Positions 1,150 to 57,923 of a stretch of DNA of 64,000 nt are shown one piece after another. The stretch lies in NCBI GenBank assembly GCA_030685235.1, contig MU839241.1, positions 26,163 to 90,162 of the forward strand, given 5' to 3'. The notes below the pieces were generated by a model that did no database searches, was not told the origin of the DNA, and was given only the letters and a program-made list of their open reading frames with translations. Each line of letters starts with the position of its first letter. Position 1 is the first letter of the stretch. Source of the stretch: Copromyces sp. CBS 386.78. Lineage: Eukaryota; Ascomycota; Sordariomycetes; Sordariales; Sordariaceae. A program made the translations under genes and the position numbers.

Positions 1150-1806
1150 TACCGCAGCGGAAATATAAGGGCGGCGTCTTGAGCAGACGGGGCCATCTGC
1201 TCATGCCTCAGTTCCTATAGCAGTCTGGTTTACTGGACCAGATGCCTCGTCTGGGCCAGACGGTTGAGGAAGCCTTCTGATTGGTCAGATTTTGGTATGA
1301 AATAATAAAAGCCAAAGACCCCTATAAGGACCTTCTAGAGGCCACTATAGAGGTCTTTTATTAATAGTAGAGGTAGGTAGTCTTGGTACTTGTCGTAGCA
1401 GTCTTTAGGCTAGCGAAGAAAGACTTCGACTTCGAAGTCCGAATGAAGGTATTCACAACCGCGCGAAACTTTTCGCGCGAAAAAAACTTGTCACCAATTG
1501 GAATCGAACTGGTGATCACAAGAATGAAAGCGACGACGAAAACCATTGAGCCACTGGCCCAATTGATTAGAAACGGGCTTCGTTCTTTCCATTCATATAG
1601 GGTAGTTGAGTTTTGACGGGGAAATGAACTTTCGGAAGAACCACCGTCAATGAGTTTTAGCGAGTATCTACAGGGGGCAATCCAATTGGCCAATCAGAGG
1701 GCCTCCTCAACCGTCTGGCCCAGACGAGGCATCTAGGCTACTTAATTCATCTGGGCCAGACGACTCCCTCTGGGCTAGATGTCGCTCGCATTTTTCCGCT
1801 ATGGTA
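1150..1806 (-). mobile_element. family I TIR element, copy A (657 bp, tRNA-like core)
   Basis: The left end (TACCGCAGCGGAAATA, 1150) and right end (TTTTTCCGCTATGGTA, ending 1806) are inverted copies of one terminal repeat, each bounded by TA. Inside each end lies an imperfect 15-bp palindrome, CGTCTGGGCCAGACG (1248-1262 and 1712-1726). Next come inverted copies of a TCTGATTGGTCAGA-like block, near 1275 and 1690. A hairpin-forming block around CCCCTATAAGGACCTTCT lies at 1320-1345. The middle carries a tRNA-like core on the minus strand (separate entry). There is no transposase, so the copy is non-autonomous. The same ends and layout recur at 6.7, 50.9 and 57.3 kb, and the ends recur on the 12-kb element at 15.9 kb. 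Confidence 0.8.
1480..1560 (-). ncRNA. tRNA-like pol III promoter core in copy A
   Basis: Reading the minus strand from 1560: GGGCCAG, then an A box TGGCTCAATGG (1543-1553), then 43 nt start-to-start to a B box AGTTCGATTCC (1500-1510), then a run of seven T (1480-1486), a pol III terminator. The B box sits in the loop of a 6-bp hairpin (arms 1491-1496 and 1510-1515). No 3' acceptor strand pairs with GGGCCAG, so this is not a functional tRNA. It looks like a tRNA-derived internal promoter, as in SINEs. Confidence 0.6.
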
Positions 1807-2057
1807 GGTATTTGGATTAAGAGCGCTGGCGAGATTACATGAAACCAGACCACATCCCTCGGTGTTTATAGGGAAGAGGATGAACGAGACTCTAGTGAAA
1901 CCCAAGACCGGGGCGAAGAATGGCTTTATGTTGGTCACGGAAGTCTGTCGTCTGTTTGAGGACACCAACTTGCACGATTTTTCCGGCAAAATGTTCCAAG
2001 AGATAATGACATCGTATGAAGCAGCGGACGACCGGACGTGGGGGACTTAAGGCCCGT
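1807..2057 (+). other. short unassigned reading frame
   Basis: From about 1862 to 2050 an open frame encodes about 60 residues with a coding-like composition (segment LVTEVCRLFEDTNLHDF). Its first codon in the open stretch is GTG; the first ATG is near 1880. It starts just outside copy A and could be an exon of a disrupted gene. I do not recognise it. Confidence 0.2.
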
Positions 2058-2610
2058 TCGTTTGTACGTTAGTACGTTCCTAGGTTAAGATTTTGTATGT
2101 AGGACGTACTACCGCACTACTGCGATTTTTCGTATTCGGCTTAAAAACCTTATTTTTCATGCACACCCTGCAACCACCTGCAACCACCTGCACTTACCCC
2201 AAATCCTCGATCTGACTAATTAGAAGGCCAGAATCTTCGAAATCCTTAACTATAGTTTTTAACGCACTACGTCTCAAAATCGAAACGTAGTACGTCAAGA
2301 ACTGCGGTTAAGGCTTAACCCCTTATATTTATAGGGGATGGCCGTCGCACTTAACCGCCTATAAATATACCTTAGGGGATGGCCGTCGCAAAGTTCCCAA
2401 TTGAAATCTGTGACTAAAGTGACGATGAGAAGGATAGCGATGATAAAAAGGATGGCGATGATAAGAAGGATGGTGATGATAAGAAGGATGGTGATGATAA
2501 GAAGGATGGTGATGATAAGAAAGATGGCGATGATGATGAAAAGGATGGTAGTGATGATGATAAGAAAGATGGCGATGATGATGAAAAGGATGGTGGTGAA
2601 GGAGGAAGAA
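2058..2610 (+). repeat. dispersed repeat (family II), copy 1
   Basis: This segment matches 58514-58903 almost base for base over its first 270 bp. Both start with TTGTACGTTAGTACGTTCC, contain CAACCACCTGCAACCACCTG-like sequence and CTAATTAGAAGGCCAGAATC, and end with ACTGCGGTTAAG and GCCGTCGCAAAG. GTAC-containing motifs near both ends (CGTACTAC, GTAGTACGT) form a partial inverted repeat, so a small TIR transposon is likely. Both copies run on into an imperfect purine-rich array of AAGGATGGTGATGATAAG units (here about 2427-2600). The long frame across the array is a consequence of the repeat. Confidence 0.65.
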
Positions 2611-2639
2611 AGAGGAGGAAAGAAGAAAGGTAGAAAGGG

Positions 2640-3300
2640 GATGTTAAGCACCTCTTTCCATCTTGCAGCCAAAGTCTTGGCCTACCTTAACGCTGCCTTA
2701 ATGTTGCAGGATTGCAGCTGCGGACCCTGCACGTTAACACGTTTATTTTCTAAAATCCCTAACGCGGACCCGAACAGGCCTTTACAGGATAATATCGGCA
2801 CCTTCTTGCAACTACTATGCAAACTCCAGAGTGTCCCAGTTGGGAGGGACATGGCGATGCATGTGGTTTCCGGACATTGGGCGTTTAAAGAGCTTGCACA
2901 GCACGGAGGGGCATATAAGCAATTGCATGCGTGGTGGTAGCCATGAGGGAATGACATGTGGCTTTAGCAAATCCAAGGCAAGTAACAGAGTGCTTGCGAT
3001 AGTGCATTAGCTCTGCTAATATTGGCTGGCATTTGGCAAGATTCCAAACCAGGCAACGCATGTACAATGTACCTTATGCATATTGTGTTAGCTGACTTGC
3101 CCTAAAAAGGCGCATGTCCGAGGGGCGCATTGTCGTATAATCCAGGACAACCGGAATTAAAATCAGATAGGACCAGACATGCAACGGATGTTCATTTTTT
3201 TCTCTGTCCAAGTATATAACCTCCCATACCCTTCCATCTCTCAACCTTCCTTTCTTCATTCTACATCATCCAAAACCACCTTGAATCTTTCTGAAGATCG
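2640..3300. other. intergenic; promoter side of the 3.3-kb gene
   Basis: There is no recognisable gene. The last 100 bp (3200-3300) are CT-rich with CATTCTACATCATCC-like leader sequence, as is usual upstream of fungal start codons, and end in CGCAATGGCG at the start of the next gene. Confidence 0.4.
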
Positions 3301-3302
3301 CA

Positions 3303-6707: not shown

Positions 6708-7373
6708 TACCATAGCGGGAAAATCCCCAGGGCAACAAGCCTTGAAGGGGGGTGTCAATGCTTGTAGTTTGACAAGCCTTGTCTCACCACCCATCACTGT
6801 AGGTTGAGGGAGGCCTCTGATTGGTCGAATTCTGGTCCGCTATAGACGGTCGCTAAAGATCCTAATTCCAAAACCCCAAAGTAACGATGGTTCTTTCCTC
6901 AAGTTCACTCTTTCTCAGAAACGCTACTACCCTATATCAAAAGAAAAAACGAAGCCCGCTTTCAATCAATTGGGCCAGTGGCTCAATGGTTCTTGTCGTC
7001 GCTCTCTTTCTTCAGATCGCCAGTTCGATTCCAGATGGCGACAGTTTTTTTCGCGCGAAAAGTTTCGTGCAGAAGTGTGAATGCCCTCATCCGGCCTGAC
7101 TTTGAAGCCAAAGCCCGACCACCCAAAAGATTACTAAAGTATAAGGTAATAACCACTAGTTAAAGACCCCTATAAGGACCTTCTGAAGGTCCTTATAGGG
7201 GTCTTACGCTTTTTTTTTTTTACCTACCTAAATCCGACCAATCAGAGGCCTTCCTCAGACCACAAGGATGGTTTTGGCAACAAGGCTTGTCCAGTTATCT
7301 TGCCTAACATTTGAACCAAGCCTTGAGGGCCCCCCTCAAGCCTTGTAAGCTTCCTCATAGTACCGCTACGGTA
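6708..7373 (+). mobile_element. family I TIR element, copy B (666 bp), nested
   Basis: The ends TACCATAGCGGGAAAAT (6708) and CCGCTACGGTA (to 7373) are the family I terminal repeat with flanking TA. Its subterminal palindrome is CAAGCCTTG (6736, 6773 and inverted or direct copies at 7281, 7317 and 7338), not the one in copy A. Inside are CCTCTGATTGGTC (left) and GACCAATCAGAGGCC (right), a perfect hairpin AAGACCCCTATAAGGACC near 7162-7205, and the tRNA-like core. It lies inside the 6337-7418 element, so it is the younger insertion. Confidence 0.8.
6972..7051 (+). ncRNA. tRNA-like pol III promoter core in copy B
   Basis: GGGCCAG (6972) is followed by A box TGGCTCAATGG (6979-6989), B box AGTTCGATTCC (7022-7032) and T7 (7045-7051). 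The B box lies in the loop of a perfect 5-bp hairpin, CGCCA/TGGCG (7018-7022 with 7036-7040). A-to-B spacing is 43 nt, the same as in copies A and C. A CGCGCGAAAAGTTTCG block follows the terminator, as in the other copies. Confidence 0.6.
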
Positions 7374-13668: not shown

Positions 13669-15895
13669 TCAAGAATCAGATGTCCCCCCCGCTCTTGGAA
13701 CCACCCAAAACAATCCCTCTCCGCCGCCCTCGACATCCGTCTCTCCCTCAAGCTCAGCATCCTCAGCGGCAGCCTCCAAGATTGGATTCGGCGAGTACTT
13801 CGCCACCCAAGCCTTCGGGAACATTTCCTCTTCATTGATAGAACCTCCTGCCGGCGCTGCCGCCGACAATTGCTTCTGAGCAAGCGCCAAGTGTTCACGA
13901 TATGGGTGATACCCCAGTTCTGGCTGTTCTGGAATCTCTCCATCCGTTGGAGAAGTGGCTGCCCTCGGAGGTGTCCGTCGAAACAACTTCAGCAGAGATA
14001 TCTTGAAGGCATGCCAGTGTTGCGCCTTCTCCCCATATTCCTCCCATTCTGGCTCAACCTGACGCTGTTGTCGTCTCGGCTGCCTATCCGGATGTGCCCC
14101 CTCTTCCATCAACTTCGGCATCACGAGAACATGCTCCCAGAGCGAAGCAGTTACCATCCACTTCAGGCGATCTGAGCTCGTTTGAGAGGTCCCCGTGTCG
14201 TTGCTTTGAGAGTGGCGCACCTCATCATCAATCCTGAGGAGATTCTTTCCTTCTTCGGTATATGCGAGAATTCGATGCAGGTCTTTGTGCAAGACGGTAA
14301 CTTGTATAGATGCCGCTTGCTTGCTCAGCTCTGCTGTAGAAACCCCAGGTTGGAAATCATCGTTATCAGGTAGAGCCCTCATGAGAATGAATGGGTAGCA
14401 GTCCTTGATGCGTTGAGCCAATGTCGATAGTTTTTGTTGGCAAAGGTCGTTGAGGTCTATCGAGAGATCGTCAAGGGCAGCCCCAACAGGATCCTGCCAT
14501 AATGCCAGGACCTCACACAAAGCTAGCTCCAACAGTGACAACGGGCGGCCGTTGCGGGCGGAAGCAAAGCCACGCGTCTCGTGCAGATGGATGATGTTGA
14601 GAAGAAACGATAGCTTTTCCATGTGAGCTACCGATCCTCCAGCATTTCGGTCCTTGTATTGTGTCAGCATCGTGTTAAACAGGGCCTTTGACCTTCGCAT
14701 CGGCGAAGCACTTGCAGCAGGCCGACCGAAGATGTAGTCAACCTCCTTTTCACAGAGGTCTTCAGCTGCAAGGAACGAGTTTTCCCAGTTCTCCCTGATT
14801 CTGGCCGTAATCCTGGTGCGATCGATAGATAGTAGAGGTAGTCTTCCAAGTTTGCCTTCGCAGAAGGCTTGAATGTCGTCGTGCGTGAACCTCTCCATAG
14901 AGAGGGTCGGAACCTTGAGCACACCTACCAAGGTTTTCCCGGGTGGAAGGTAGAGAGACTTAGACTGATGCCATCCGTAGAATTCACCTTCAGGTCTCGC
15001 TGACACACAGACCTTGACTCCTTCGACGCCTGCTAGGCTTTTGATGAACGCATGGCATTCTTTGTCAAACCCGCTCACTCCGTCGAGGAAGATGTAGACC
15101 GGACCCGATTTCTGAACCTCTTTCAAAGCTTTTTTCAGAGTGTCCCTGAGCAAGACTGACGCCCATGCCTCCTCATCCGCGTCACCCCTTGCCCCGTCAC
15201 AACCGCTGGCAGTGTAAGCCTCGGAAAAACATTGAGAGACATCAGCCGGGAACCTCCTGACCAGTTGCAGAAGAAGATTCTGCAGCATGCCTTGGAAACT
15301 GTACTGCACCCTATGCTGATCTGGCCCATTGCATGCATGAAGAAGTGGCTGACCACAAAAACATCCGGCAGCCATGGCTTCGATCTATCCACACACATCT
15401 CGGGATTTCGTGTCAGTTGTGCAACAAGGGCCTTCATCAAGACACTTTTGCCACTTCCGGGGTGCCCGAAAATCCAGTATATGTTGGCTTTGGTGGATGC
15501 GGACTTCAACCAAGCAGTGAATGCAGCGTATGGCTTGGTTGTTTGACCTGACGCTCTTTCTCTCTGATCAATCAGTTCATCGGTACGTACCAAGATCCAT
15601 TCGAAGGTGCCTGGTAATGGATTAGGAACCATAGAAAGCCGGGAATCCTCGTCTGCAAACTTGTAGCTGTGAAGAATGTCATTTCTGAGGATTTCTGGTA
15701 TTTTCGAGTAGTATCCGCGCCCAGGCTTTTGTCCGGGACACGGAGTACCCTCTTTGACGGGAAAGGCGTTTGCTGTGTCCGTTGAGGCGTTGATCGATTG
15801 AGAATATCTTCGTACGACAACCCCCAAGGCCTTTTCCAAGGCTTCCAATGCCTTATACGGAGTTATTTTCTCTTCGAGGTTATCGCCTTGAAGGT
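13669..15895 (-). pseudogene. NACHT-domain NLR-type protein, main part, cut by a transposon
   Basis: The order of blocks is that of fungal NLR/STAND proteins. A TFEWIL segment and WLKSASTKANIYWIFGHPGS lead into Walker A (GHPGSGKS, about 15444-15467). They are followed by VVSHFFMHA, GMLQNLLLQL, a Walker B-like VYIFLDGVSGFD (about 15070-15100) and VCVSARPE. A C-terminal helical region then contains SARNGRPLSLLELALCE and RLKWMVTASLWEHVLVMPK. Between VVSHFFMHAMG and QYSFQGMLQN the frame shifts by one base (15310-15345), so the protein is broken unless this is a sequencing error. The 5' end runs without a stop into the terminal repeat of the 12-kb element; the start codon is at 27906 on its far side. 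By family, NACHT is an oligomerising NTPase used in heterokaryon incompatibility and related recognition. No repeat domain is seen at the C terminus. Confidence 0.8.
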
Positions 15896-16099
15896 TACCA
15901 TAGCGGAAAAATGTAGCTGGCCTCTGCAGCAGATGGGAGATTCTGTGGAAGATGAAAGCGTTTCGCCCAGTAAAGGCATCTTGTCCAGATTTATCGTCTG
16001 GGCCAGACGCCTGAGGAGAGCTTCTAATTAGCTAAGAACTTCTATTCCTTTCTCCCCCTAAAGGAGTATACTAAAGGCTCAAATTTCAACTATAATTTA

Positions 16100-19000
16100 C
16101 AGCGAGGTCTATCGAGCGCACAAACCTCTTCGAAAAAGCCCCTAAATATAACCGCCAATATTAACAATATAATTATCGCTTATAGTAATTATATTAAAAA
16201 GTACGGACTATAATATTTACCCTATTAATTAATTGCGCTACAGTATGTACTAACCGCCTAGGGTAATACCTAATTAGGCCGTACAATTAAAATTATTACG
16301 AAATTATAGTACTTAATTAGGCTGTACAATTAAAGCTATTACGAAATTACAATTGCGTATTAACTTTTTCGATATACTTGCGTATTAATCGAATAATATA
16401 ATAATAATATATATGTATAGACGTGAAAATTAATATAAATTAGGAAATAGAATAATGGGATAATCCGTTTTTTTTATTCGTTCGTATTATAATATTAAGA
16501 CTAAAGGTAAAAGGGGCGGGGGTTACTGTAACGATGAATTATAATTATTAAAGGAATTTCTATTAATGGACGAGCTAATTGCGAAATCTTTACTTAGAAG
16601 TATAAAAGGTAGTCTAATTACTTAATATAGATTGTAGTCGGTACGGTCTTTTAATATTAGTATATAATCCGATTGTTTTAGTAATAATAATTGTAATATT
16701 ATAATATAGATTTATTATTGCTGTAGGTTTAGATATAATTGGTATGGTATAGAGTGATGCGCTTATTATAAAAATTTATAGGATTAATAGATTTATTAAC
16801 GATTAGATTGTCGAAGTTGAAATCTTTTTAATAATATTAATTAAAAAAGCGAAATATAATATTACCCTTCTTATTACGTTTACCCCTAATAATTCTTCGG
16901 CCGCCTTTAATAAGACCGGTAAATATATCTGCGGGCGGGCTATTAGTAATGCTAAAAGTACTAAGAATACGGCTATTACGAAATTAGGACCGTATATTAA
17001 TATAATTTAAATTAGGCGTAGCCGATATTTAATGGGATACGGCCTTACCTCCTTTAATTAAATTCCGGGTAAATATAATTTATTATAAAGGGGTACTTAT
17101 AGGGTTAATAGATTAGTTAATACTATATACCTTCGATGCGGCAATATTCTGGGTAAATAATGCCCTAGGCTGAAATTTCCGGGTAGAAGAGGTATTTAAA
17201 GGTTCGGGAATATTTGTTTTAGCGGGTATAATAATAGCCGGCGGCGGCGGCGGCGGAGGGGTAGGGAAAGATAATGGCGCTAGTTTAATCGGACTTAGCC
17301 GGTGCTTAAATAATTTCTTTAGCGAAATTTACTTGGGTGTGCCGAAAGTAATGGTTGGCTTAGTTAATTTAGGCAGTAAATGCGGCGATAATTGCGGCGG
17401 GGAAGATAATTCGGATGATTCTATAATACGGGTAGTAGTACGGGTAGCCTCTTCTTTATTAGCCTTTTCCTTTATAAGCCGAATAGCCTCCTCCCTAGTA
17501 GTACGGGCAACTTCCTCTTTAGCAATATAGGTAGCAACCTCTTCTTAAGTAATACGAATAGCAGCCTCTTCTTTCTCTTTAGTAGTACGGGTAGTAATAT
17601 TTTTATCGGCTTTCTCCTTTATAAGCCGAGTAGCCTCTTTTTAAATAGTACGAGTAGTAGCCTCTTCTTAAGTAGCGTAGGCAGCAGCCTCTCTAGTAAG
17701 CCGAATAGCCTCCTCTTAAATAGTACGGGCAATAGCCTCTCTAGTAAGCCGAGCAGCCTCCTTTTTGTCGGCATTCTCTTTTACAATACGGGAAGCCTCT
17801 TCTTTAGTAAGCCGAATAGCCTCCTCTTTCTCTTTAGTAATATAGGCACCTTCCTCTCTTATTTCGGCATTCTCTTTTACAAGCCGGGTAGTATCTTCTT
17901 AAATAATACGAGAAGCCTCCTCTTTAGTAAGCCGAGCAGCCTCCTCTTTCTCCTTAGTAATATAGGCACTTTCCTCTCTTATTTTTTAATATTCAGCTTC
18001 TTTTTGGGCTGCTCTCTTCTATACCCTTTCCGCTTCCTCCCTATTATTGTAGTATATCCTTATAATAAAATAATAGGTATTATTAATATATATAGATTTC
18101 TATTCCTAAATTTAGAACTCTAAGTAAAAGCCTTTATCGACTTTCGCTTTATTTTTATTAAATTTATTAATATATACCTTATAATTAATAGTATAAATCC
18201 GGCGGATATCTTTAAGGAATTCGAAAAATAAAGTTTTAAATTTCTTTTAGGGAATTAAATTAAGCGGTAGAGAAGATTCGTTATATAAACGCCGAAGATA
18301 ATACAAAATATTATTACCTTTAATTATTTAATCGATATTATAATTATTATATTAGGTATCGATATATTCGTCGAACTAAATAATAATATTATAAAGGAAA
18401 TTATATTATAATAATTTAAATTCTATTTCGGTATTAATCTTCTTTTACCTTTTAATTTCTATCTTAGGCGACGGAGGTCCTTTAAGCGAAGGAGACTTCT
18501 AAAGCGAAAGAAACAACGGAAATTCCTCGATAATAGGGGACAACTCTCTAATTAGGTCGGGAATCGGTTTTATTGTAAGTAGTTCGGTAATAATTATACC
18601 CTTTTATTTTAATATTTCCTAAGCTTTTATTTTATATTGGGGTATAAGAACGTTCTTAATATAATCTAATCTCTTTAATATATCGATATTATTATTTTTC
18701 GAAACCTTATTACCCGCCCGGTAAAATTCGTCGTCTAATGAATCCGAAATAGAATATAGTTATATACGAAATATTTCTATATTTTCGGATTGGACAAATA
18801 TATTATATATAGTATGTGTAATATCGAGAGGGGATGAGGGCGGGGATAATTTTAAATACGAAGAGGTTTTAATAATAGGCAATTCGGTAATTAGTATAAG
18901 TTTTAGTCTATACGGTCTAAAGTTAGGAGGAAGTATTAGAGTCTTTTTAACTGCCTTTTTAATAGATCCGGGGGCGGGTATACTCTTAGGCTTCGGCTAC

Positions 19001-20750
19001 GGTACTTATAGAGGAGGGATTAGTATAATTATAGGCGGTTTAAATAGGGTATTCTTTAAATACTATATATATCGCTTTAACCTTATGAAAAATTCGTCGA
19101 AAGTATAGGCTGTAATTAATATTTCGATATATTTAAATAGAGTACTTTTCTATAGCCGTAATATAGGATCCTTTATTTACTTATTGAACTAAGATGTGAT
19201 TTCGGCGTACTAGTTTTATATTATAGTTAACTTCTGCGGTAATATTATTAATAATTATTTCTTTCTAGACGATGGCGGGGGGTCCGGAATCGGCGATTTA
19301 GTCTATGAGCGTTATTATTTTTATTGAACGAATAATTTATTAGAAGGCTTGGAGGTATCCGGCTCGTTAAAAGGGTTTAGGATATTAATATTTGTGATTT
19401 AGCTATTATTATTTAATTGCTTATATATATCGTTATTATTATTACCGATATTAAAATCTCTATATACGCTGTTTATTATAGTATCCGATAAATTGTCCGA
19501 CGATAATAGAGAGGATGCCTCTAGGGGTAGGGTATAAGATATACTATATTAATCCCAATATACGGTAAGATTAAATTGGGTTTCGATAGCTAGTATTAAT
19601 ATAAATATATTTTCGTATTAAATAAACGTGTCTAATTCGACTTTACGAAGGGCTAGGTAGATAGACAAGTTTTAAAATACTTTAGTAGTTTCCTTACGCG
19701 GATCTTTTAATTTAAATTATTTTAATAATTTATATACGAATTTAATGTATTTACAACCCTTTTTAATTATATTCCTACGTTTAAATATATAAACTTAAGT
19801 AATTTTATGTAGCGTTTTAATATAAATCTTCCGAAGAAAAAAGTATTTAAGAAAAGTACGGTCCGTAAAATTCTCTTCCTAATTTAGATATAGTATAATA
19901 AATAAGAATAAGTACGAATAGAATAATTTATTAAATTTAACGTACGCCCAATTTTTAATATATTCGATATTGTTGTTGTCGAAATACCTTTCCTTATTTA
20001 AGTTTGCGTAGTTAATATAAAACCGAAAATCGGTTTTAAAATCCTAGGTCTAGTTTATAATTATCTTATAAAACTGATTCTATATTATTTCTTATTTATA
20101 TATTCCGAACCTTTCTAATATATAAATATATAAATTAAGAAATATTGCGCTAAGTGTTAAGATATTGGGAAAGACGGCGTAGGTAATAGAAATTAATAAT
20201 ATATTCGAATAATATACAAAAAAGACCTTTTAGTTGAAGGGGTCGATTTAATTCTTTATTTTATTTAATTTATCTTTAAATAAGTTAGTTAGGTTACGCC
20301 TCTATTTAATATTCGTTAGGTGAAAATTAATAAGGACGAACTTTTTAAAATTAGATCGCTTAAATAGGCGGAATACGTTAGGGTAGGATTTGTATAGCTA
20401 CTTATATAGAAGTATACGAATTAATTAAATATAAAGCAACGGGTAGTTAATATATTGAAATAATGTAATAAGACCTATTTAATAGTATGCTTCTCCTTAT
20501 TCCTACGTAAGATTGAATTAGTTGTAATAGGTTTACGCCGAGTAGGCTTAACCGGAGTACGGAGTAATAATTGTTTATATCGTTTTAATATTCGTTTTAA
20601 ATTTAATATATTAGCCGTAATAGTATTAGATATATAGTTTATATTCGATTCGTCTGCCGGTATAATTATAAGTATTTATTATATTGCGTTGTATTATTAG
20701 GACTAGGTTTAGGGTAATTGCGAAATGCCGGTTTATGCTTATTAATGTAA
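16100..20750 (-). pseudogene. decayed coiled-coil ORF in the 12-kb element
   Basis: The minus strand can be followed for long stretches broken mainly by TAA/TAG, the outcome expected of RIP on CAA, CAG and TGG codons. Between about 18,060 and 17,430 it encodes an imperfect repeat of REEAxRLxKEEA-type units, an obvious long coiled coil, followed by a Pro-rich segment (TPPPPPPPA near 17,240). The region further upstream (20.7-18.1 kb) is coding-like (TPVKPTRRKPITTNSILRRN) but unrecognised. Its place opposite a transposase gene suggests an accessory DNA-binding protein of the element. That is inference. Confidence 0.4.
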
Positions 20751-21899
20751 TTGGTTAATAAATATTGAATAATGATGTATTATTTTTTATATTACTTATT
20801 TAAGTCGTCGTAATGTTTTAATATATATGTTTACTAGTTGTACTACCTTTAGTGCGCGATGGGGGTAGTGGGACGCTTTCGTTGTCTTTTATAATGGTAG
20901 CGATTGTAGTACGTATAAGATTTAGTTATTATTGTTAGTAAATATTTTTAGGGATAGATGAGATGGAGATAGAGGTTTTTTATTTTTGCGGGTTGATAGA
21001 AAAAGATTTTATAAGTGTAATTTGTACGTTGTTTTAGTAATGCTATTTATTTAACGGGTAATAAATAGTAGATTAGTAGATAAAAGGTATTAGTAAATTG
21101 CTTTACGGTACTTCGTTTATTTGCTTTATTGCGTTGCGTTTAGTAGGTTGGTAAAGTGAAGTGAATAGGCGAATAATAAGGTAAATAATTGTGCGTAGGT
21201 TTACCGCCTTGCTTAAATTACTTTAATATTCCGATTTCTAGTTAATAAAAATTAGAAAAGTCTTTTACTTACGACGATCGAAGCTTATAATATCGTTGCG
21301 TCAATTTACGTCGCGTTTCGCGTAAATTAAATAGGGAAATAAGGAGATTTCCTAAAGCGTAGGCCTCGCCTACCAGGTAGGAAATATTACTGCAATCTAA
21401 ATTTAGGCGATTAGTAAAACGATAATAACGAAGATTATATTTAATATATTAACGAGTAATAACCCGGTTAGGATATTACAATAATAGACTTCGTATTATC
21501 TCTTCCGAATTATTATAATAATGTTGATTTTTTAATTGAAGAGCCGGTCGTTAAGCTGATTGTAGAGGGCGATAATATAATATAAAGTATCGAATAGATA
21601 GTTAGGTCGAATATATTGCCGTTATTAATTAGCGATTAAGGATGGAAGATGGAGTTTAAGTTTAATGAGGACGATAGTAAATTCGAGGCTCCCTTCGTTT
21701 TTTGTAGATAAAATTAATTTAGAATTGGTTTTAATTTTTATTAATGTCGAAGAATTCTGAATTAGTAATTTTGAAAATATTATAGCTTATGCGACGTAGT
21801 CTGGTATATTATTCGATAATATATTAGGTGTTGAAGATTACGAGGATTATATTATTGTCGTAGTAGATTTTAAATTATTTAACGAAATTAATATATTGG

Positions 21900-24000
21900 A
21901 GGAAGAGGGCTTATTTACGCCCTTATATAAAGAGGGTAATAATAAGGATACGTTTGTTCTTGTATTAGTACGTTAAAATAAATCCGTCTAAATAACTGAA
22001 TTCGAAATAGCGATAGCGATATTCGTAGATTTAACCAGGCTTAATTGGAGAAATTAGGAAGCTATACGAAAAATGCTATTTCTATTATGTAATGAAGATA
22101 ATAATATCTTTAAAATAATAAAGCTATTACCCCCGTAAAAATCGATACTCTTAAATCGAATACGAAAACGAATATTAATAATATATATATAAAAGGCTAA
22201 TATTCTATTAAATGTTGTAAAATTGCCTACCCTACTAGCTGGAATTAAAGATAGTGAGCGTTAAAAGATTAAAATAGTTCGAATACGGGAAGAGTTAAAG
22301 AAAGTAATTAATATAGTAAAGAAAATAAAGAATTTTATTAAGCGATATAAGGGAATAATTAAAGAGCTTCGTACGTTGAGGCTAGTTATAGATTGTACGA
22401 AGGCGAAATTAGAAAAATTAAAAGTTAATTTAACGACGGAATTAGTTCGGTTAGGTGTAAAATTAGAATTAAACGATAAAAATACGGGTCCCTTATTGCT
22501 AATTATAATAATTTTAATATTTTTTAATTTATTTATACTATTTAAAAATATTATGGCTTCCGATTTTAGTAGGCGATCCTATTCTGGTCCTAATTATTTT
22601 GTAGATAACCCCCGCGAATTCTACGAATTAGACGCTTAGCTATCGTTAGTGCGTACTATATCTAGATAGTACGCGTATGTTATTTTAGAAGATAGTGTAA
22701 AAGGTCCCGTTATTTTTCTATACGACTAGGTCTATTATTGCTATATTAAGCCACTTGATCGCTATTTATTAGTATATAATAATATACCCAATAAATATAT
22801 TTATATTAAAATATATATTAGTTGTATATAGGCTGTTGGATTTAATTATCGGATAAAAAGAATATATATTTAAAACCCTAATTAATTTTATTTATAGATT
22901 TAAAACGCTTATAAACGCGGAATTACTATTTTCGCTAACGTTAATAATATTATACCCGAATAAGAATTTAGAGAGCTTATTTTAATTAATAAATTAATAT
23001 TTATACCCGAAACGAAAGTATATATATATATTGTTATTAAAGTATATATAAACTATTCGTTTAGTAAAGATTATTGCGATCCCGGCTTTAAAATTAAGTT
23101 ACGATTGGGTATAAGATAAAAATAATAAGTATTATTCCCTAAGTACGATTAGTTAGTTTTATTTACCCCGTAGAATAAGGATACGTATTATAATATAGTC
23201 CGGTGAATAATAATAGTTGGAAGGAATAATGTTGTGCCTATATACTATATAAACTTTATTAGAGCCGAGCTAGAGTTCGATTATTTTTCCCGTAAAGTAT
23301 TCGAATACGAATAGGATTAAATACGAGAAGGGTGTCTACTTATAATATTGTTTTTTTATATTAATTTTATTGATAGATTTAATATATTCTGTAATTCCTA
23401 TTGTATATTAATAGGATATTATTTTATACTAGCGGGCTTAACGATAGAGGAATGTATAAAATCCGGTAGCGTTTTTCCCCTACTTTTCGGATTATATAGT
23501 TCAAACTTCGGCGATATTATTAAAGTAATAACGATAATAGCAGATTTAAATAAGGGTATAATTATCGATATGCTTAGGAAAATACCCGGTTATAAAGGCA
23601 ATAGTATAAAAGTTATATTCTACGTATTTATAATCTATTATATAGGTGATATATTATAATAAACTGAAAATTCGGGATTTAAAGGCCTGCGCGGCACTAA
23701 GTTTTATTGATGTTATTTTATATTTTCTAATGTTAGGAAGCCTACTCGAAATTCCCCCGGTAACCTAAACGTATAGATTAACTTTGATATTATATATTAT
23801 AATTATTACTATTAATAGATTATAAAAATTTAATAATATATAGTATTATTGAATCTTAATAATATTAAGCGATATAGTACCTAATGGGGAATATTTAACC
23901 TATTTCCTACCCTATATCGATTATTGTTAGCACTTGATATTGTAATAAGCCGCCCTCCCGATATAGTATATTCGGAATTTAACGGTATTATATACATACT
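21900..24000 (+). pseudogene. decayed TNP2-like transposase
   Basis: Plus-strand fragments keep the block order I know from large fungal TNP2/EnSpm-like transposases. These are NYFVDNPREFYELDA, then IRAELEFDYFSRKVFEYE, then LFFYINFIDRFNIFCNSY (intact members have an F.DGFGLYRNSY-like segment). AGLTIEE and SVFPLLFGLYSSNFGDIIK (intact: VFPLTLGPHGSNF) follow, and finally IGDIL, two stops, and NSGFKG.RGTKF (intact: GDMPQQ..NSGFK..R). Stops and substitutions fit RIP. A coiled-coil segment (about 22,260-22,480) precedes it. The family call rests on motif memory and should be confirmed by a profile search. Confidence 0.5.
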
Positions 24001-27000
24001 TTATTTACTATTCTGCTTTATTCTATTAAACCCTATTGTAAGGGTCGAATATATTGTTTAACTATAGGCCTAGTTATTCCTTTTTAGATAGGGATATTTA
24101 TAATCGCTATATAAATATCTTAAGAATTATAAAATAAGTGACTATAGTAAATAATTGATTATTATCCCTGCGTTATTATTGTACTAGTTGAAAAGAGACT
24201 ATTTTAACGATAAATTCTGTGAATGAGTAGAAGTAGAGACCGGCGGTAAAGATTTAGTAAAATTGATTATTGAAATAATGGCTAAATTGGCTAAAAGTGT
24301 AATTATATTAATGGGCACTAAGATTTCGAAATATAACTATTGCTGATTATTAGAATTAATTTATGAAATACGGTACTTATTTAACTAATTCTATATATTC
24401 GCTTCGGTTATATTTGGTTCGATAGTTATATTAGGTATAAGATTAGGCGTAGGGACCTTAGGAGTATTCGGGGGTTCGCCGGATTGGCCGCCGCTATTAT
24501 AGGTAGGAGAAGTCGAAGCTGGAGATAAAGCTAGAAATAATGCCCCCGGTAGAAAATTAGGTAAAATTAATAATAGAATTTTGCGACCTAATATATATAT
24601 TATAATATATTATAAGTCTTTTATAAAGGAATACGGTTTACTAATTAATTGTAATATATTGACGGGCGAGGATACGTATAGGTAAGTAAATTTTTAAAGA
24701 AGGAAGGAGTTACTAAGCGGGTAAATATATTGTAAGCAGAAATTATATTATTCTATTACGTAATTATTGTACTTACGTATATTAAAATCGTAGTAAATAT
24801 AAATATTACGTATTAAGATAGTATTATTCAAATATTATTCGTTAGTATTTAAATTCTTTTTTCGTTAATAATTTTTCGAATAGATAATTTAAAGAGAAAA
24901 TATATTAAATTAATTATTCTACTATCGAAAAAGTATTATTAATGAAAATAAATTTCTAGGAATTAATATATTTCACCCTCTTTAATACGTATAAAAATAC
25001 TAATTTCGAACTAACTATATAAATAGCGGAGCTATATTACAAATACTCTATTCTATTTAATAGGACTTTATTATACTCGGATTGGAACGAAATACGAAAT
25101 AAAGAAAAAGAGTTAGAATATAATATCGATATACTGTAAACCGATTTAAATTATTTATTATTAACGGCTATTAACTATATTTTAGTAAAAGAATTAGAAT
25201 TCGTTACATATATCACTAATAAAGGTTAACTACTTCTAAGTATTATTATAATCGATTATATAATAATAATATAGATTAAATTATTACGGTATACTTATTA
25301 GTATAACTATAGCGCGCTATTTAATTACCTACTAGTATTTAACGAATATAAGAAAATCTAATTCTCGTACAAATTGGCTTTTATAAATAAATACATACCT
25401 TTACTATATTATTATTTTATTTCGGAAATTATAATACCTCTATCGATATTTAATAATTATATTTAATATCGACATATATTTTACCCTATTTCTATACTTT
25501 TATTAGTATTTACCCCTTTTATTATTATATTTTTATTAATTTAAATATATTATATATTATAATAATTAATTTCGTATAAATAAGAGCTATTTCGATAACG
25601 GTACTTCTATACGCTATCGAATACTATTTATACGAAAATATTATATTTATATATACTAAATTATATATAAAAATTACTTATTATTTTACCGTATACGTAT
25701 CTGATGCACATTATATATTGTACTCCAAATCCAACTTTATAATTAAATACGTCTACTAGTATCGAATATGCCGGCATTTATTTAATAGCGTATATAAAGC
25801 GCGATAATTAATTAAAAAATATATTTACTTTAATTATAGTAATTTAATTGTTATTAATATCGTTATATTATTTATTTAGACAGTATAATAAATATTATAA
25901 CTTAAATTAATAGTATACTAATAATTCCTATAATATATTTATAATATTACTAATTACTAATATAAATTCAATTATAACGATTATATTAAATTTATCTACT
26001 ACCGTAATAGCGAAAATTAAAGTAAATATTAAATTAGTTATATCGAATATATATTTATTATAGATTATTATAAAGCTAGGTATATTTTCGCCCTCGTTAT
26101 CTTAATTACGTATATTAAAGTTAGGTAACCGCTTTTAGACTTTAACATTGTAGAGGAAATCCCGTATGAATTTATTATTATTAATATACTAATAATTCGC
26201 CCTATTTATTTATATATAGTTCGTATAGAAGGAATAGGAGTAGTTATAGTAGATTAGGATATATATACGCTCTAGCGATATCCGGCTATAATATTATTCA
26301 ATAATAGAATCGATTATTTTACCCCGAATTATAGTACCCTATAATATTTATAATACCCGTAATAAATATTTGCCGGAAAGGTATTAAGTATATAAGTTTT
26401 TGTCCGTGAATTCTTTTATTAAATAAATATACTATACTAACTTACTCGCTTATATATGGTTAACGGCGGGCGATAACGATATATTGTATAATAACGATAT
26501 TAATATAATTATAATTATATTTATCCGTACTTGAATAAATGCTGACTACTAGTGAATTTTGAATTATTATTTAGTAGATTATATATTAATAGGTATATAT
26601 ATAGGAGTACTACTCGTTGGTCGCTGGTAGCGTTTTTAGCCTAGACGAATATATAAAATAATAGAAATTGTTTAAATCTTTAATCTGATTTCGACGGACC
26701 GAATTTCCGGGGCGGATAACTATTACGTATATACTCCTCTATCCTATCTCTATAATCCCGGGCTACGCTTACAGTACTACTTAATTAGGAATATTAATAG
26801 CAAGTTATTTCTATCTATATCATACTAGCGTATAAAGTAGACGGTCGCGTATTAATATAAACTAATTAATAATTATAAGAATAAGTATTTAAATACGTAC
26901 CGTATAACGTACTATACAATATAACCATATATAAAACGATTTTTAAGCGCTAGAAATCTTATAATTATTTAATTAAATATTTTCTTTTCTTTATTATTTT

Positions 27001-27160
27001 CTATTTCGTCGCTTTTATTTATAATCTTATAATATACTTTTACAATATTTACCGATATATATTTTTTATATATAGTAAATAATTAATAAAATAGTAATGC
27101 AATAATATTAGTATAAATTACCTTAATAATAATAGTTTTAATTATATATTATTAATATAA
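24001..27160. other. AT-rich interior of the 12-kb element
   Basis: RIP-mutated sequence with no frame that can be followed far. The C-terminal part of the transposase probably lies in its first kilobase. Confidence 0.5.
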
Positions 27161-27169
27161 CCATACGCT

Positions 27170-27540
27170 TATAGGGTAGCGGGGGCATTCAATCCAATAT
27201 ATAGTATACGGTGTACAATATACGACCGTACGTCGGTATAGGCATTTAATCCGGTATATAGTATACAGTGTACGACCGTGCGTTAGTATGGGCATTCCGG
27301 TGTACAGCCGTGCAGCCGTACAGCCGTATAGCCGTACAGCCGTACAGCCGTAGGAGCGCAACCGCCAGCGGGGTCTGTATATAGATTAGAGTCGCGGATT
27401 AGGGTTGCGGATTGGGGTCGCGGATTAGGGTCGCGGGATTAGGGTCGCGGATTAGGGTTGCGGATTAGGGTCGCGGAATAGTGCTACGGATTAAGGTCGC
27501 GGGATTAAGAATGCGGGTTAGGATATAAATTATTAAATAA
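27170..27540. repeat. GC-rich subterminal tandem repeats
   Basis: Three arrays sit next to each other. About 50-70 bp units containing TATAGTATACGGTGTACGACCG lie at 27,180-27,300. ACAGCCGT units in tandem lie at 27,300-27,350. A 12-13 bp repeat of GCGGATTAGGGTC lies at 27,387-27,530. Unlike the rest of the element they keep CpA. Tandem subterminal motifs are typical transposase-binding regions in EnSpm-like elements; that role here is inference. Confidence 0.65.
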
Positions 27541-27859
27541 AATCCAATACCTATAGTTATAAGCGTAACGACCCGCCTCCTATCCGTATATATAGTCCGT
27601 ACATCCGCGTAAGCAACACCCGAACTTATACACCGGTTCCAGCGCATACTTTAACGTATACTTTAGAGCATTTTCCAATAGAAACCGGATGATAAGATTT
27701 AAATCAATTAGAGGCCTCCCTCAGTCGTCTAGACCAAACGATTTCATCTAGTCCAGATTTCAACGTCTAGTCCAATAAACCAAACTACTATAGGAACTGA
27801 GGCATCGGTAGATAGCCCCTATCTACTCTAGACGCCCCCCTTATTATTCCGCTGCGGTA

Positions 27860-47045: not shown

Positions 47046-47169
47046 GCGCGGTTGGCGTAGTGGTCAACGCGTTCGCTCAGTACGCGGGCACTTCGATCAC
47101 CTACGGTGTTCGTGGTTGGGGTGCCTCCCCAACGGTGAGAGTTCCCGGGTTCGAATCCCGGACCGCGCA
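47046..47169 (+). tRNA. intron-containing tRNA gene
   Basis: Acceptor strands GCGCGGT and ACCGCGC pair perfectly. The A box is TGGCGTAGTGG and the B box GGTTCGAATCC. The D stem GCGT/ACGC and T stem CCGGG/CCCGG are perfect, and a T10 terminator follows. The total is 124 nt. A 73-nt tRNA is obtained if TTCGC pairs with GTGAG as the anticodon stem, leaving an insert of about 51 nt one base after the anticodon, the standard place for a nuclear tRNA intron. The insert contains a strong hairpin (GTTGGGG/CCCCAAC). On this fold the loop begins TCAGTA, which would give anticodon AGT but with C instead of U at position 33. The identity is therefore left open. Confidence 0.8.
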
Positions 47170-50071: not shown

Positions 50072-50105
<34 letters not shown>

Positions 50106-50888: not shown

Positions 50889-51121
50889 TACCGTACTGGA
50901 AATATACGCTATATGACATTGAATGTACTGTCCAGGAACTAATGTAAATAAAATATTTAATTAGATTAAAACTTCGGATATTAATTTAACATCCAATATT
51001 TAAAGCCCTATAAATAAAAGAAATAGAAGGCTAGGGTACCTCTTTAGGTACTCTAGCCTTTAATTCTACAAGGTCTTTTAGAAGGCCTTTTAGAAGGCCT
51101 TTTTATAAAGCAGGTAATAAA

Positions 51122-51152
<31 letters not shown>

Positions 51153-51496
51153 ATTGAGAAGAACAAAAATTTTAATCACAACGAGGAATCGAATACGAAT
51201 TTGAAGGTAAAGAACTACTTCATTAACCACTTGGCTACTAAGCTAAATAGTTATTTTTAACGGAAAGAGCGGATTTTCTTAGTTATAAAGGGAAAGTGCG
51301 ATATTGGGAAATGGGAAGGAAAGATTTTGAAACTTTGAAAAAAAAAAAAATTCTCGAAGTTTTTTCCTTCCTTTTTCTTCAGGTGCAACCCCCTATATTA
51401 TAGCGCCTTCAACTTTGAATGTCAAAGCAACATTGGAAGTCTAGGATGTACCTCCTAAACATTGAATGTCCTAATTTGTATTTTTCCGCTATGGTA
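50889..51496 (-). mobile_element. family I TIR element, copy D (608 bp)
   Basis: The left end is TACCGTACTGGAAATA (50889) and the right end TTTTTCCGCTATGGTA (to 51496), each with TA. The subterminal palindrome ACATTGAATGT lies at 50916-50926 and 51459-51469, with partial copies between. A repeated AGGCCTTTTAGAAGGCC-like block lies at 51,080-51,105. The left and central parts show CpA loss (AT-rich), so this copy is older or partly RIP-mutated. It separates the reading frame that begins at 51639 from whatever followed it. Confidence 0.7.
51185..51244 (-). ncRNA. tRNA-like pol III promoter core in copy D
   Basis: On the minus strand the A box TAGCCAAGTGG (51227-51237) and B box TATTCGATTCC (51185-51195) are 42 nt apart, start to start, and a T5 follows downstream. 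The core differs in sequence from copies A-C but keeps both boxes and their spacing. The hairpin around the B box is weak here. Confidence 0.5.
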
Positions 51497-51639: not shown

Positions 51640-51794
51640 TGTATACCACTAGAGGTAGAGACTCGATTTGGCGTAGACGTTCACATTGTAATGGTTGAAG
51701 ATAATAATTTGGAATTCATTGACATTGAAGCTGCCTAACCCACGGGAGAGTGATTCTAGACTAGCATACGGCCTCTCCTGTTGAATTCTGCCCA

Positions 51795-53062: not shown

Positions 53063-53134
53063 TGCCCACAGCCAGAATCGAACTGACGACCTCATCATTA
53101 CTAGTGATGCGCTCTACCACTGAGCCATGCGGGC
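53063..53134 (-). tRNA. tRNA-Thr (anticodon AGT)
   Basis: 72 nt, no intron. The acceptor GCCCGCA pairs with TGTGGGC (one mispair). D stem GCTC/GAGC, anticodon stem CATCA/TGATG with loop CTAGTAA (U33, anticodon AGT, A37), T stem GTCAG/CTGGC and loop TTCGATT are all well formed. The discriminator base is A. A T-rich run follows on the minus strand beyond 53,050. Confidence 0.93.
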
Positions 53135-56084: not shown

Positions 56085-56215
56085 ATATTTACAACATTGG
56101 CCAGACAACGAACGAAGTTAAAAAGCCAACCCTCGCAATCGTGACTGCCATTGTACTTGCCGCTGATGCGGTACGCTCTACTGTGCCAGATGGCGTTGAT
56201 CTCCGTGCTTGCGTT

Positions 56216-56503
56216 CTAGATCTCGAGGACGCGAACCGTAGGGGCAACAGGTTGAGTCCCTGCCGGCGCGTAAGGACGAGGCGCGCTCGGCGCAGGCTCC
56301 GATCCGTTTTGAGGAGGTTCTACCAGCATCGCGGCTAGGCAACGGATCTTGTGGATTATCCACTCGTCGAGGTTGGTGTGGTGGAGGTAGGAGAGCGTGA
56401 TGTTTCTCTCCATGGCCTTCCAGAGGATGTTGAGCTTCTCGTAGTCCGATAGAGGGGCGGTCGGGCTAGAGACTATCGGGGCTTCAGCGTTGCGGGTGGC
56501 CAT
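56216..56503 (-). CDS. unrecognised small protein family, member 3 (truncated)
   Basis: 95 codons from ATG 56503. LNILWKAMERNITLSYLHH, then LDEWIIHKIRCLAAMLVEPP, match the helical half of members 1 and 2 (W-x5-IRCL). After a Pro-rich stretch the frame stops at 56216 (VRVLEI) before any GPA-x-IH domain; only unrelated frames lie beyond. The TIR element lies about 130 bp downstream. It is probably a truncated paralogue. Confidence 0.5.
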   Translation of the reverse strand: MATRNAEAPIVSSPTAPLSDYEKLNILWKAMERNITLSYLHHTNLDEWIIHKIRCLAAMLVEPPQNGSEPAPSAPRPYAPAGTQPVAPTVRVLEI

Positions 56504-57267
56504 GACGACGGCTGAGCTGCTAGAGAGATGGATGGTGACGAGGACTGTAATGAGCGAGATGTTACCTCTAGTGTTCAGTCAAACAAAATTGAAAGCCCCC
56601 TTCCTTGCCAATTTGACATCTTGGGTTTCTATGGGCAAGATGTAATCCCGAGAAGACGAACAGCTTGTATGACCTATATCGCGCCCGGCATTGTTCATTT
56701 TACTCTGCTTTGATGCAATGTTCTTCAGGACTTCAGTTTGACCGCATATACGCCAAAGAACCTACAGCTATCTCCATGCAACCAGGTACATCATGAATAA
56801 CAACCAACAATCCAGACAAGAAGCAACCTGAACCCCGCCAAATTTCCCTTGTCATTTCCCTTCAAAATATTTCCTTGTACAACAGCTCTCTTGTGTCCTT
56901 TGCGCTATGTTTGACATCGTGCACCCTCACCAGTGTCATCCTGGGAGCTTCGACGGGTTCGGGTAGGTCGGAGCACGAGGTGCTTTGCCTAGATCCTTCA
57001 AGATAGGATGTGGACCATTGTTGATGGGAGGGACTGCGTGGGGAGGCACTTGGGCAAAGTCTGCTTGCTTGTCACGTTTTGGTCGTCAGAGAAATGGTGT
57101 TTGGACTGCACATGGGCAAATGATAAAGCTTCTGATCTTGGTGTCGGGCCTGGGGATACCGATTGCTGAGGCAGCTTCAAGGCGATGTGTCGAGCGCTTG
57201 AAGATAGCGCCGAGGATGATGAGCTTGCCCAGGAACACATCGAGTGGAAGGCAGGCTGAGTTATAGG
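56504..57267. other. intergenic, no supported gene
   Basis: Short frames on both strands at 56,985-57,266 overlap each other and have no motifs. Confidence 0.45.
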
Positions 57268-57923
57268 TACCGTAGCGGAAAAATCAGGAAGTTGGGTAGC
57301 CTACTTGAACAAGTAGCCTACTTGATTTGAGTAGGCTACTTGGAAATGGCCACTTCTGATTAGCCGGATTTTTGGTCCGCTATAGCTATTCGCTAAATTT
57401 GGAATTTCAGCGCATTTTTTTCTCAAACTCCAAAGTTCTTTCCTATCCTAACCGCTCCTTCCCTTATATAAGGAGAAGTCACGAACCTCGGTATCAATCA
57501 ATTGGGCCAGTGGCTCAATGGTTATTATCGTTACTCTCATTCTTGTAGTTGCCAGTTCGATTCCAACTAGTAACAAGTTTTTTTCCGTCGCGCGAAAAGT
57601 TTCGCGCGATTACCGGACTTCAAAGTTGAAATCTTCGAACTACCCCCTCCTATACCCAACGCCTACTAACCTAACTACTAACCTAACTACTAAAACAATT
57701 ATTAAAACCTCCTAGGACGGCTTCTATAGTATTATTATAGAAGGTCTTCTAGGGAACCTCCCTTTTTTATTCTTATATTGAAATTCTGACCAATCAGAAG
57801 CCGGCCTCAGCAAGTAGCCTACTTGAGCCAGGTAGGCTACTCCTTAAAAGTGTACACGTTAACCAGAGTAGGCTTCTTACACCCAAGTAGGCCACTTAAC
57901 CTCCTTATATTTCCACTCCTGTA
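57268..57923 (+). mobile_element. family I TIR element, copy C (656 bp)
   Basis: The left end TACCGTAGCGGAAAAATC (57268) is clear. The right end, about 57,923 (ATATTTCCACTCCTGTA), is degraded but falls at the family length. The palindrome AAGTAGCCTACTT (57311-57323, 57812-57824, with half-copies between) is this copy's own subterminal motif. Family blocks CTTCTGATTAGCC, TTTGGTCCGCTATAGC and TTCTGACCAATCAGAAGCC are present, as is the tRNA-like core. Confidence 0.75.
57504..57584 (+). ncRNA. tRNA-like pol III promoter core in copy C
   Basis: GGGCCAG (57504) is followed by A box TGGCTCAATGG (57511-57521), B box AGTTCGATTCC (57554-57564) and T7 (57578-57584). A hairpin around the B box is kept with different bases than in copies A and B (GTTGCCA with TAGTAAC). 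Confidence 0.6.

Follow-up and report, generated by a model that had tools for sequence, protein, structure and literature searches.

A stretch of 64,000 nucleotides of Copromyces sp. CBS 386.78 (the window; contig MU839241.1 of assembly GCA_030685235.1, forward-strand positions 26,163 to 90,162) contains four mini-elements, which belong to a genome-wide family of miniature inverted-repeat transposable elements (MITEs). Analysis of the sequence established that members of this family have terminal inverted repeats (TIRs) and a 2-bp target duplication, fall into discrete classes of odd subterminal palindromes (class H excepted) and carry CCAAT blocks at both ends of most copies. It also established that they share an internal RNA polymerase III (pol III) type-2 layout, referred to as the core, in fixed orientation and with near-fixed spacing, which is conserved above its surroundings between classes, and that the ends of four elements of about 12 kb best resemble the MITE classes A, E/G and H (F by end tag). 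With a confidence slightly better than even, we propose that the core is a cis-acting module aiding MITE multiplication, that the palindromes are sites for class-specific dimeric transposition proteins and that the 12-kb elements are the partners of the MITEs.

Mini-elements of the window

The 17-bp terminal repeat TACCATAGCGGAAAAAT was matched seven times in the window at up to 3 mismatches, against an expectation of 0.24, and none of 100 shuffled sequences reached seven matches. An earlier note on this DNA had described four elements sharing this repeat. The ends are far above chance, but the right end of element 4 is degenerate (TACAGGAGTGG). Both ends are recognisable in elements 1, 2 and 3, the second end of element 3 corresponding to an 11-mer with 2 mismatches. 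The elements and their parts are located as follows.

1150..1806, - (core strand): mini-element 1, class A, palindromes CGTCTGGGCCAGACG
1595..1599, -: TATA motif of the pol III unit of element 1, 46 nt upstream of the A box
1543..1553, -: A box TGGCTCAATGG of element 1, exact match
1501..1509, -: B box GTTCGATTC of element 1, exact match
1480..1486, -: T7 run of element 1, putative pol III terminator
1460-1479, -: CGCGCGAAAAGTTTCGCGCG-type hairpin, directly after the T7 run of element 1
1314..1358, -: internal hairpin of element 1, the longest detected (without shuffle control)
1278..1284, +: inner TGATTGG block (CCAAT type) of element 1, at its core-distal end
1690..1696, -: inner TGATTGG block (CCAAT type) of element 1, at its core-proximal end
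6708..7373, +: mini-element 2, class B, palindromes CAAGCCTTG
6933..6937, +: TATA motif of element 2
6979..7031, +: A box (6979-6989) to B box (7023-7031) of element 2, exact match
7045..7051, +: T7 run of element 2
7163..7205, +: internal hairpin of element 2, the longest detected, with 20 bp and a loop of 3 (without shuffle control)
50889..51496, -: mini-element 3, divergent class C, palindromes CATT[CG]AATG
From 51237 down, -: A box TAGCCAAGTGG of element 3
51186-51194, -: B box of element 3, TTCGATTC with A replacing the first G
51165-51169, -: T5 run of element 3; TATA at about 51284-51287
57268..57923, +: mini-element 4 of class D, with a degenerate right end and palindromes GTAG[CG]CTAC
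57511..57563, +: A box to B box of element 4; TATA 46 nt upstream; T7 run at 57578-57584

Three exact pairs of A box and B box were found in the window and none in 100 shuffled sequences. The start-to-start spacing of the boxes is 44 nt in elements 1, 2 and 4 and 43 nt in element 3, not 42-43 nt as first described. The inner block of CCAAT type, which had been attributed to all four elements, was recovered in elements 1, 2 and 4 (the left copy of element 4 reading TGATTAG) but is not clearly present in element 3.

Each element has its own palindrome, as had been noticed: TCTGGGCCAGA in 2 exact copies in element 1, CAAG[CG]CTTG in 5 copies in element 2, CATT[CG]AATG in 2 copies in element 3 and GTAG[CG]CTAC in 5 copies in element 4. 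Outside the elements, these motifs occur 1, 0, 0 and 0 times in the window, respectively. The motifs are real, but the letters C and D had been swapped relative to the order of the elements. No open reading frame (ORF) of at least 200 aa was found in the four elements, a weak test at an element size of 600-670 bp.

Genome-wide family and target sites

The 49.8-Mb assembly (273 contigs), which is marked by repeat-induced point mutation (RIP), was searched with the ends and with the core. At up to 2 mismatches, 95 left ends were matched (control 12). Right ends, searched with their own consensus TACCGCAGCGGRADTATRRG, also gave 95 matches (control 0), 6 of which coincide with left-end sites. Combining the 95 left ends with 89 right ends produced 52 pairs in opposite orientation: 37 at 614-716 bp, 4 at 1.0-1.5 kb, 5 at 5.3-9.1 kb, 5 at 11.7-12.7 kb and 1 at 21 kb. 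The ends left unpaired were 43 of 95 on the left and 41 of 89 on the right. The small size class is secure, because end pairing alone separates it from control pairs in the same orientation. Contig C29 (462 kb) holds 12 of the 95 left-end matches, where its share of the genome predicts about 0.9, and is possibly a transposon-rich or accessory region.

For delimitation, 77 candidate end pairs were considered. Excluding those outside 560-720 bp and merging duplicates left 49 oriented candidates, and removal of 3 spurious pairs gave 46 delimited elements, in which elements 1 and 2 of the window are L033 and L034. One-ended copies (e.g. L015, L023 and L060) stand outside this set. A TIR is present at both ends by paired-end delimitation, with slightly different left and right consensus.

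The flanks are TA on both sides in 44/46 elements, as the earlier note had seen in the window; one of these is L036, whose right boundary was placed about 34 nt outward of its proper position, and its right TA is discounted. One other element has TT/TT and one has TA/TG. In a nested insertion, one element interrupts another's core and is bordered by TA left and right, and two elements share a single TA. Bases flanking the insertion are also biased, with T or A at -4 in 38/46 and at +4 in 44/46. The TT/TT element argues that the dinucleotide is part of the target. The sequences thereby confirmed a family of TIR mini-transposons with a 2-bp target duplication that is nearly always TA.

Layout and conservation of the core

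The complete pol III type-2 layout (TATA, A box, B box and T-run) was found in 46/46 delimited elements, which bears out the previously noticed combination of DNA-transposon ends with a conserved pol III-type core. The TATA motif lies 43-51 nt before the A box in every element, and exactly 46 nt before it in 37. The A-to-B spacing is 44 nt in 44 elements and 43 nt in the 2 others, both of class C. At least four T follow within 21 nt (13-21 nt) past the B box in 46/46, as T7 in 43, T5 in 2 and T4 in 1. The orientation of the core is constant relative to the two unlike ends of the element. A genome-wide search gave 29 exact cores, each with a gap of 31 nt although 18-46 nt was allowed (control 0). 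Neither a lack of the shared core nor an absence of the boxes from most copies, which the earlier note had named as refuting, was observed. Most copies outside class C show, by eye, a short hairpin of CGCG type after the T-run. Further downstream, a hairpin (best per copy 12-33 bp, with mismatches; no shuffle control) was found in each copy.

The internal sequence of a MITE is usually regarded as filler. In this family, the two 20-nt bins with the highest conservation in the whole element fall within the internal pol III layout. With class C excluded, between-class identity in core bins from the A-box region to the T-run is 0.94, 0.85, 0.79, 0.77 and 0.91, as compared with 0.80 and 0.84 in the TIR bins, 0.69 and 0.76 in the CCAAT blocks and 0.26-0.59 in the subterminal zones. 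Conserved ends and core with discrete subterminal classes, as proposed from the four window elements, are a property of the whole set. With class C included, the four promoter motifs reach 0.906 between classes against 0.569 for the rest of the core region, a difference attained by none of 20,000 random block placements (p=5e-5). These values are to be read with the shared ancestry of the elements, since neither alignment columns nor elements are independent. Within this region, class C compared with A, B and D shows 0.37-0.39 identity outside the motifs and 0.76-0.77 inside. A promoter is well supported by these sequence data.

An alternative is that an ancestral MITE captured a pol III-type sequence which has no role, and whose conservation merely reflects a recent split of the classes or ongoing homogenisation by gene conversion. 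Homogenisation of cores is possible. Core distances are small (mean 0.159, versus 0.33 for ends), and the core is only partly congruent with the two ends (Mantel r 0.53 and 0.50, versus 0.735 between the ends themselves). In addition, the ends of L043 (C75:112635-113284) are of class G while its core is class I-like (0.92 versus 0.84), and this element is likely to be a recombinant in which the core was the exchanged part. Yet homogenisation would not favour the boxes alone, whereas promoter positions are more conserved than their neighbours within the core region, and class C retains the layout in an otherwise diverged region. We regard a core without a role as fairly unlikely.

Association of the core with element ends

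Many loci were fetched via the core; the fair sample is thus the set fetched via the ends. It comprises 27 loci, with one site listed twice and L077 excluded since it was brought in by the core. Of these, 15/27 loci (14/26 sites) score for the core. The 12 loci scoring as coreless include two with class C cores (L001 and L075), two 12-kb elements (L080 and L083), what looks like a large class C relative (L003), two truncated copies (L006 and L085), a degenerate one (L078) and four weak end matches (L072, L073, L074 and L079). No intact small element lacking the core was seen among the 27 loci. In L006, from its position 1501, a mini-element of class A stops just at the A box, and unrelated DNA comes next. 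L003 (C29:144595), also from position 1501, has a left end of class C type with palindromes, followed by DNA without core, and is possibly a large class C relative.

Conversely, each core in the fetched loci is accompanied, in register, by one element end or more, which for L060 is recognisable only at 2 mismatches. The core as a free short interspersed nuclear element (SINE) was rejected, as no core without an element end occurred among the fetched loci. The SINE-like label of the earlier note does not appear to extend to mobility. In place of the hallmarks of SINE retroposition (a 3' tail, target duplications of several bases and no TIR), the elements display TIRs and a 2-bp duplication. What they share with SINEs is the internal pol III promoter, present as a sequence layout in 46/46 elements.

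Possible RNA from the core

The core had also been called tRNA-like. Neither ARAGORN nor the Rfam tRNA model gave a match in the four window elements, and the core as a tRNA was rejected. Its tRNA-type character is limited to the promoter layout; judged by the sequence of these four elements, the core is not tRNA-like as an RNA. Excerpts of a study of fission yeast tRNA genes place the likely site of the TATA-binding protein (TBP) at -36 to -28 (PMC11547032). If the A box lay at +8, the TATA would begin around -39, on the border of the fission yeast TBP stretch; were transcription to start some 15 nt ahead of the A box, it would come to lie near -30.

The selected product might instead be a small RNA made from the unit, acting as a Dicer substrate, as a guide together with the downstream hairpin or as an RNA bound by a transposition protein. 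The T7 run in 43/46 elements would suit such a product, as would a predicted 5' hairpin of the core RNA, in which 96.8% of cells are paired, and the uncontrolled internal hairpin further on in each copy. Moreover, major Neurospora microRNA-like RNAs (milRNAs) depend on pol III, according to excerpts of PMC3547838. Against this, covariation did not exceed that of shuffles: of 500 shuffles, 31, 55 and 82 reached three of the observed values, and 268 and 284 reached the other two. The fold z-scores of core RNA versus shuffles, for six sequences, were only -1.2 to -2.2, i.e. mildly better. The T-run also lies upstream of the longer hairpin, which would thus require read-through. A function of the RNA, unlike the promoter, is not well supported by sequence, and we judge this explanation rather improbable.

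Subterminal palindromes and CCAAT blocks

Classes were assigned from the left-end tag of the 46 elements, giving 11 elements in class B, 9 in A, 8 in F, 5 in I, 3 each in D, E and G, and 2 each in C and H. Odd palindromes (4+1+4) number 5.41 per element, versus 1.10 in shuffles and 0.67 in internal spacers, and their centre is C/G in 215 and A/T in 34 (n=249). The commonest motif is CTGGSCCAG in class A, CAAGSCTTG in B and F, GTAGSCTAC in D, CTAGSCTAG in E, G and I, and CATTSAATG in C (two elements, 2 copies). Others are GAGGSCCTC and GAAGSCTTC in A (8 each), CCTTSAAGG in B (11), and TAAGSCTTA and CTTAWTAAG in F (8 each). Class H has repeats of GTTTGCA type and no clear odd palindrome. L004, of class A, carries CTAGSCTAG in place of CTGGSCCAG. 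These two motifs differ by CpA-type transitions in both halves, and RIP could cause such changes. The odd palindromes suggest a protein with two-fold symmetry.

The palindromes of the copies fall into discrete classes and do not vary at random. With ties counted as same, the nearest neighbour belongs to the same class for 44/44 elements by the right 150 nt and for 39/44 by the core. Random shuffling of palindromes between ends was rejected on the basis of the right-end neighbours. The earlier note had considered that subterminal motifs evolve or are swapped as modules; they are not freely swapped, and ends are mostly inherited with the whole element. In the likely recombinant L043 it was the core that was exchanged.

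The block TGATTGG (CCAATCA outward) is present at the left end of 36/46 elements, at the right end of 34/46 and at both ends of 29/46, compared with 0.05 and 0.6 in shuffles. A RIP-tolerant version of the pattern, used without control, occurs at both ends of 42/46. We take this block to fit the consensus of the CCAAT complex.

Large relatives

The window also contains a large relative of the MITEs.

15896..27859, +: 12-kb relative, 11,964 bp, class A-like ends, RIP-degraded
15896..15912, +: TIR at the left end of this relative
27843..27859, -: TIR at the right end of this relative
21599..24595, +: broken ORF of ~950-1000 aa with 46 stop codons, candidate transposase, relatives in all 8 large elements

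The palindrome TCTGGGCCAGA, overlooked in the earlier note, is readable in the left end of this copy. At least 8 large elements of 11.7-12.7 kb were recognised, 5 from end pairing alone and at least 3 more, which came out with a search for the class F left end, from the ORF and end positions. The broken ORF of about 950 aa is present in 5/5 of those found by pairing. Its orientation is constant among the 8 large elements, where it is found in one or two pieces at a distance of 5.5-6.4 kb from the left end and 3.3-3.9 kb from the right end. Relatives of the ORF are found throughout the genome, with stops in 46/46 among the matches listed. The ORF is a candidate transposase by virtue of its position and conservation, and it contains a stretch, GD..QQ..N..FK, which we take to resemble Plavaka/tnp2-type proteins. 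A second gene, on the minus strand at 16.85-18.7 kb with coiled-coil-like repeats, could not be demonstrated, several frames scoring alike in comparison with another copy. The 9.1-kb pair at C29:190783 was rejected as a large element: its first 0.6 kb reads as a core-bearing MITE, beyond which lies different repeat-like DNA.

Seven large-element ends, from four elements, were read. In the window copy, one end is nearest to class A by a narrow difference (0.69 versus 0.67 for G or lower), as is the other (0.73 versus 0.72 for G and E). Ends on C29 are closest to G/E (0.77/0.76) and to E (0.83), those on C28 to class H (0.75 and 0.81) and the one on C105 to class G (0.82). Thus 5/7 ends match one palindrome group clearly, and the two exceptions belong to the window copy, although the palindrome of class A is present in them. 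Class F has at least 3 large relatives by left-end tag. CCAAT-like blocks were seen by eye in most of the seven ends. That 12-kb ends resemble particular MITE classes fits the earlier suggestion of class-specific DNA-binding proteins, which would then probably be encoded by these relatives.

The core is absent from the whole window 12-kb copy and from the first 1.5 kb of two others. A core inside the window copy was rejected by a position-weight scan (-54, versus -35 to -55 for shuffles and 140 for an intact MITE). The core is therefore not needed for the transposition reaction itself; it appears not as a part of cutting and joining but as an aid gained by the small elements.

Chromatin environment

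The core could also serve as a chromatin boundary or as a shield of the element against RIP. Yeast tRNA genes act as heterochromatin barriers, seemingly requiring the whole pol III apparatus, according to excerpts of PMC7990762. The mean GC of the MITEs is 0.44, while the 12-kb copies are strongly RIPped. RIP spares short repeats, and this GC contrast is confounded by length. GC is normal in the flanks on both sides of 40/46 MITEs and differs by more than 0.12 between sides in 6, so that no boundary role is apparent from their positions. Besides, the MITEs are themselves RIP-marked: their mean TA/AT is 1.21, equal to that of RIPped blocks, although CA+TG is 1.02, and C/T differences among them are commonest before A. 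A boundary or shield is hardly probable. These three alternatives to our proposal are not mutually exclusive among themselves.

Proposed mechanism

In the mechanism that we favour, a cis-acting core aids the multiplication of MITEs that are non-autonomous and probably moved in trans by 12-kb relatives with common ends. Each palindrome class would likely be the binding site of a homodimeric transposition protein from its own 12-kb class, in which case the classes would be parallel systems with little cross-mobilisation. The pol III unit likely binds TFIIIC/TFIIIB and is probably transcribed into an RNA of roughly 95 nt. It would be kept because carrier copies multiply, a role in amplification in cis and not a service to the host. 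A non-autonomous element would be expected to keep what helps copying; kept here are TIR, class palindromes, CCAAT blocks and pol III layout. The most fragile step is how the core helps. The assembled pol III complex might keep the element nucleosome-free and accessible to transposase, or it might pause replication forks, at a time when transposition gains copies; the outer CCAAT sites might do likewise at the element ends. Fork pausing is described for tRNA genes in excerpts of PMC7990762.

Several results weigh against this proposal. To the missing core in the 12-kb sequence read, the aberrant class H, the covariation no higher than in shuffles and the normal GC flanks must be added that many of the 46 loci were fetched via the core, that the elements are related, hence non-independent, and that classes B, D and I yielded no 12-kb partner. 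Pairing alone is no proof of a large element, as the 7 control pairs in the same orientation all span 5.6-15.4 kb; the large class rests instead on its tight length and on the ORF. For the ORF, Pfam returned only BAR (E=1.1) and neuropeptide (E=6.3), neither usable, the scan of the whole 12-kb element covering 4/6 frames (plus-strand frames 1 and 2 left out). Protein searches with the ORF gave no match. A Plavaka model found nothing in the genome, where the controls were equally without match, and the fold model of the ORF was unusable (mean predicted local distance difference test score 31.4).

As the best-conserved bins lie in the pol III layout and the 12-kb sequence read is without core, selection on MITE copies appears to act on a platform for host transcription factors. 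More broadly, and only tentatively, cut-and-paste MITEs may use the host pol III machinery as an amplification aid in cis, without retrotransposition, with selection between copies maintaining an entire tRNA-type promoter and terminator as well as CCAAT-complex sites at the two ends, and their classes may diverge in dimeric codes matched to their own 12-kb donors, a lock-and-key speciation within one genome. The family makes testable whether pol III occupancy aids DNA transposition. In its parallel palindrome classes, of which some have a 12-kb relative resembling them, the co-divergence of ends and DNA-binding proteins can be studied as a natural series. MITEs, subterminal repeat codes and pol III promoters are each already known. 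In open-access titles and the beginnings of abstracts, no report of a MITE family with a conserved pol III unit was found, and a search by four end strings returned unrelated papers only.

Other features of the window

A long-inverted-repeat sequence, whose arms carry CGTAGTACG/CGTAGTGCG, is present at 2239-2318, at 58693-58776 and about 1.1-1.2 kb downstream of the TIR of L075; Rfam microRNA matches at the two window sites are far below gathering scores. On the minus strand, 13672-16031 holds two ORFs whose matches are NPHP3_N/NACHT-like and, for one of them, exceed the Pfam cut-off, and the 12-kb element is inserted at 15896, in or beside their 5' part. A further exact TACCGTAGCGG at 62281-62291, in an AT-rich block reaching the window end, may be the end of another RIPped large element. 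The AT-rich blocks of the window show a RIP-like dinucleotide bias. Two tRNA genes score above the Rfam threshold, at 47046-47169 and 53063-53134; the former has 57 nt in the anticodon arm versus 6 in the model, probably an intron. The window also encodes a GH11 xylanase with CBM1 and a hybrid histidine kinase.

Comparison with known systems

Tc1/mariner elements are about 1-2 kb long and encode a DDE/D transposase of roughly 350 aa. The relatives described here are instead about 12 kb, with an ORF of roughly 950 aa giving no significant Pfam match. tRNA-derived SINEs have internal A and B boxes, a likeness that extends to the AfuSINE2-type tRNA-related SINEs of filamentous fungi. AfuSINE2 differs by its direct repeats, 4-14 bp in excerpts of PMC5063351, where our elements have TIRs and a 2-bp duplication, and here no core without an element end occurs in the fetched loci.

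The pol III milRNA loci of Neurospora, also a filamentous ascomycete, are of the same kind in having TATA-like elements, the layout here being read from sequence alone. As far as excerpts of PMC3547838 go, those loci are mostly intergenic without repeats, and both boxes, A and B, are missing from milR-1. The elements of Copromyces, in contrast, are mobile and have both boxes.

En/Spm carries subterminal repeat arrays. Large TIR elements with such arrays are common to our family, CACTA/EnSpm and the CMCT clade (Plavaka, ESTA). In the excerpts of PMC12730594, the CMCT clade has a DDE transposase with C(2)C and H(3-4)H motifs and termini that are mostly 5'-CA..TG-3', with TA target duplications in ESTA and 2 or 3-bp duplications in Plavaka. 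The TA duplication of ESTA and PHISTA is found here as well. The termini differ, being CC..GG inside TA and not 5'-CA..TG-3', and the protein of the 12-kb element has no family match by Pfam or protein searches.

Fungal MITEs, small TIR elements moved by larger relatives, have in common with the elements here the size of 0.6-0.7 kb, TIRs, a short target duplication and long relatives with similar ends. What distinguishes the present family from them is its complete, conserved pol III type-2 layout together with class-specific odd palindromes.

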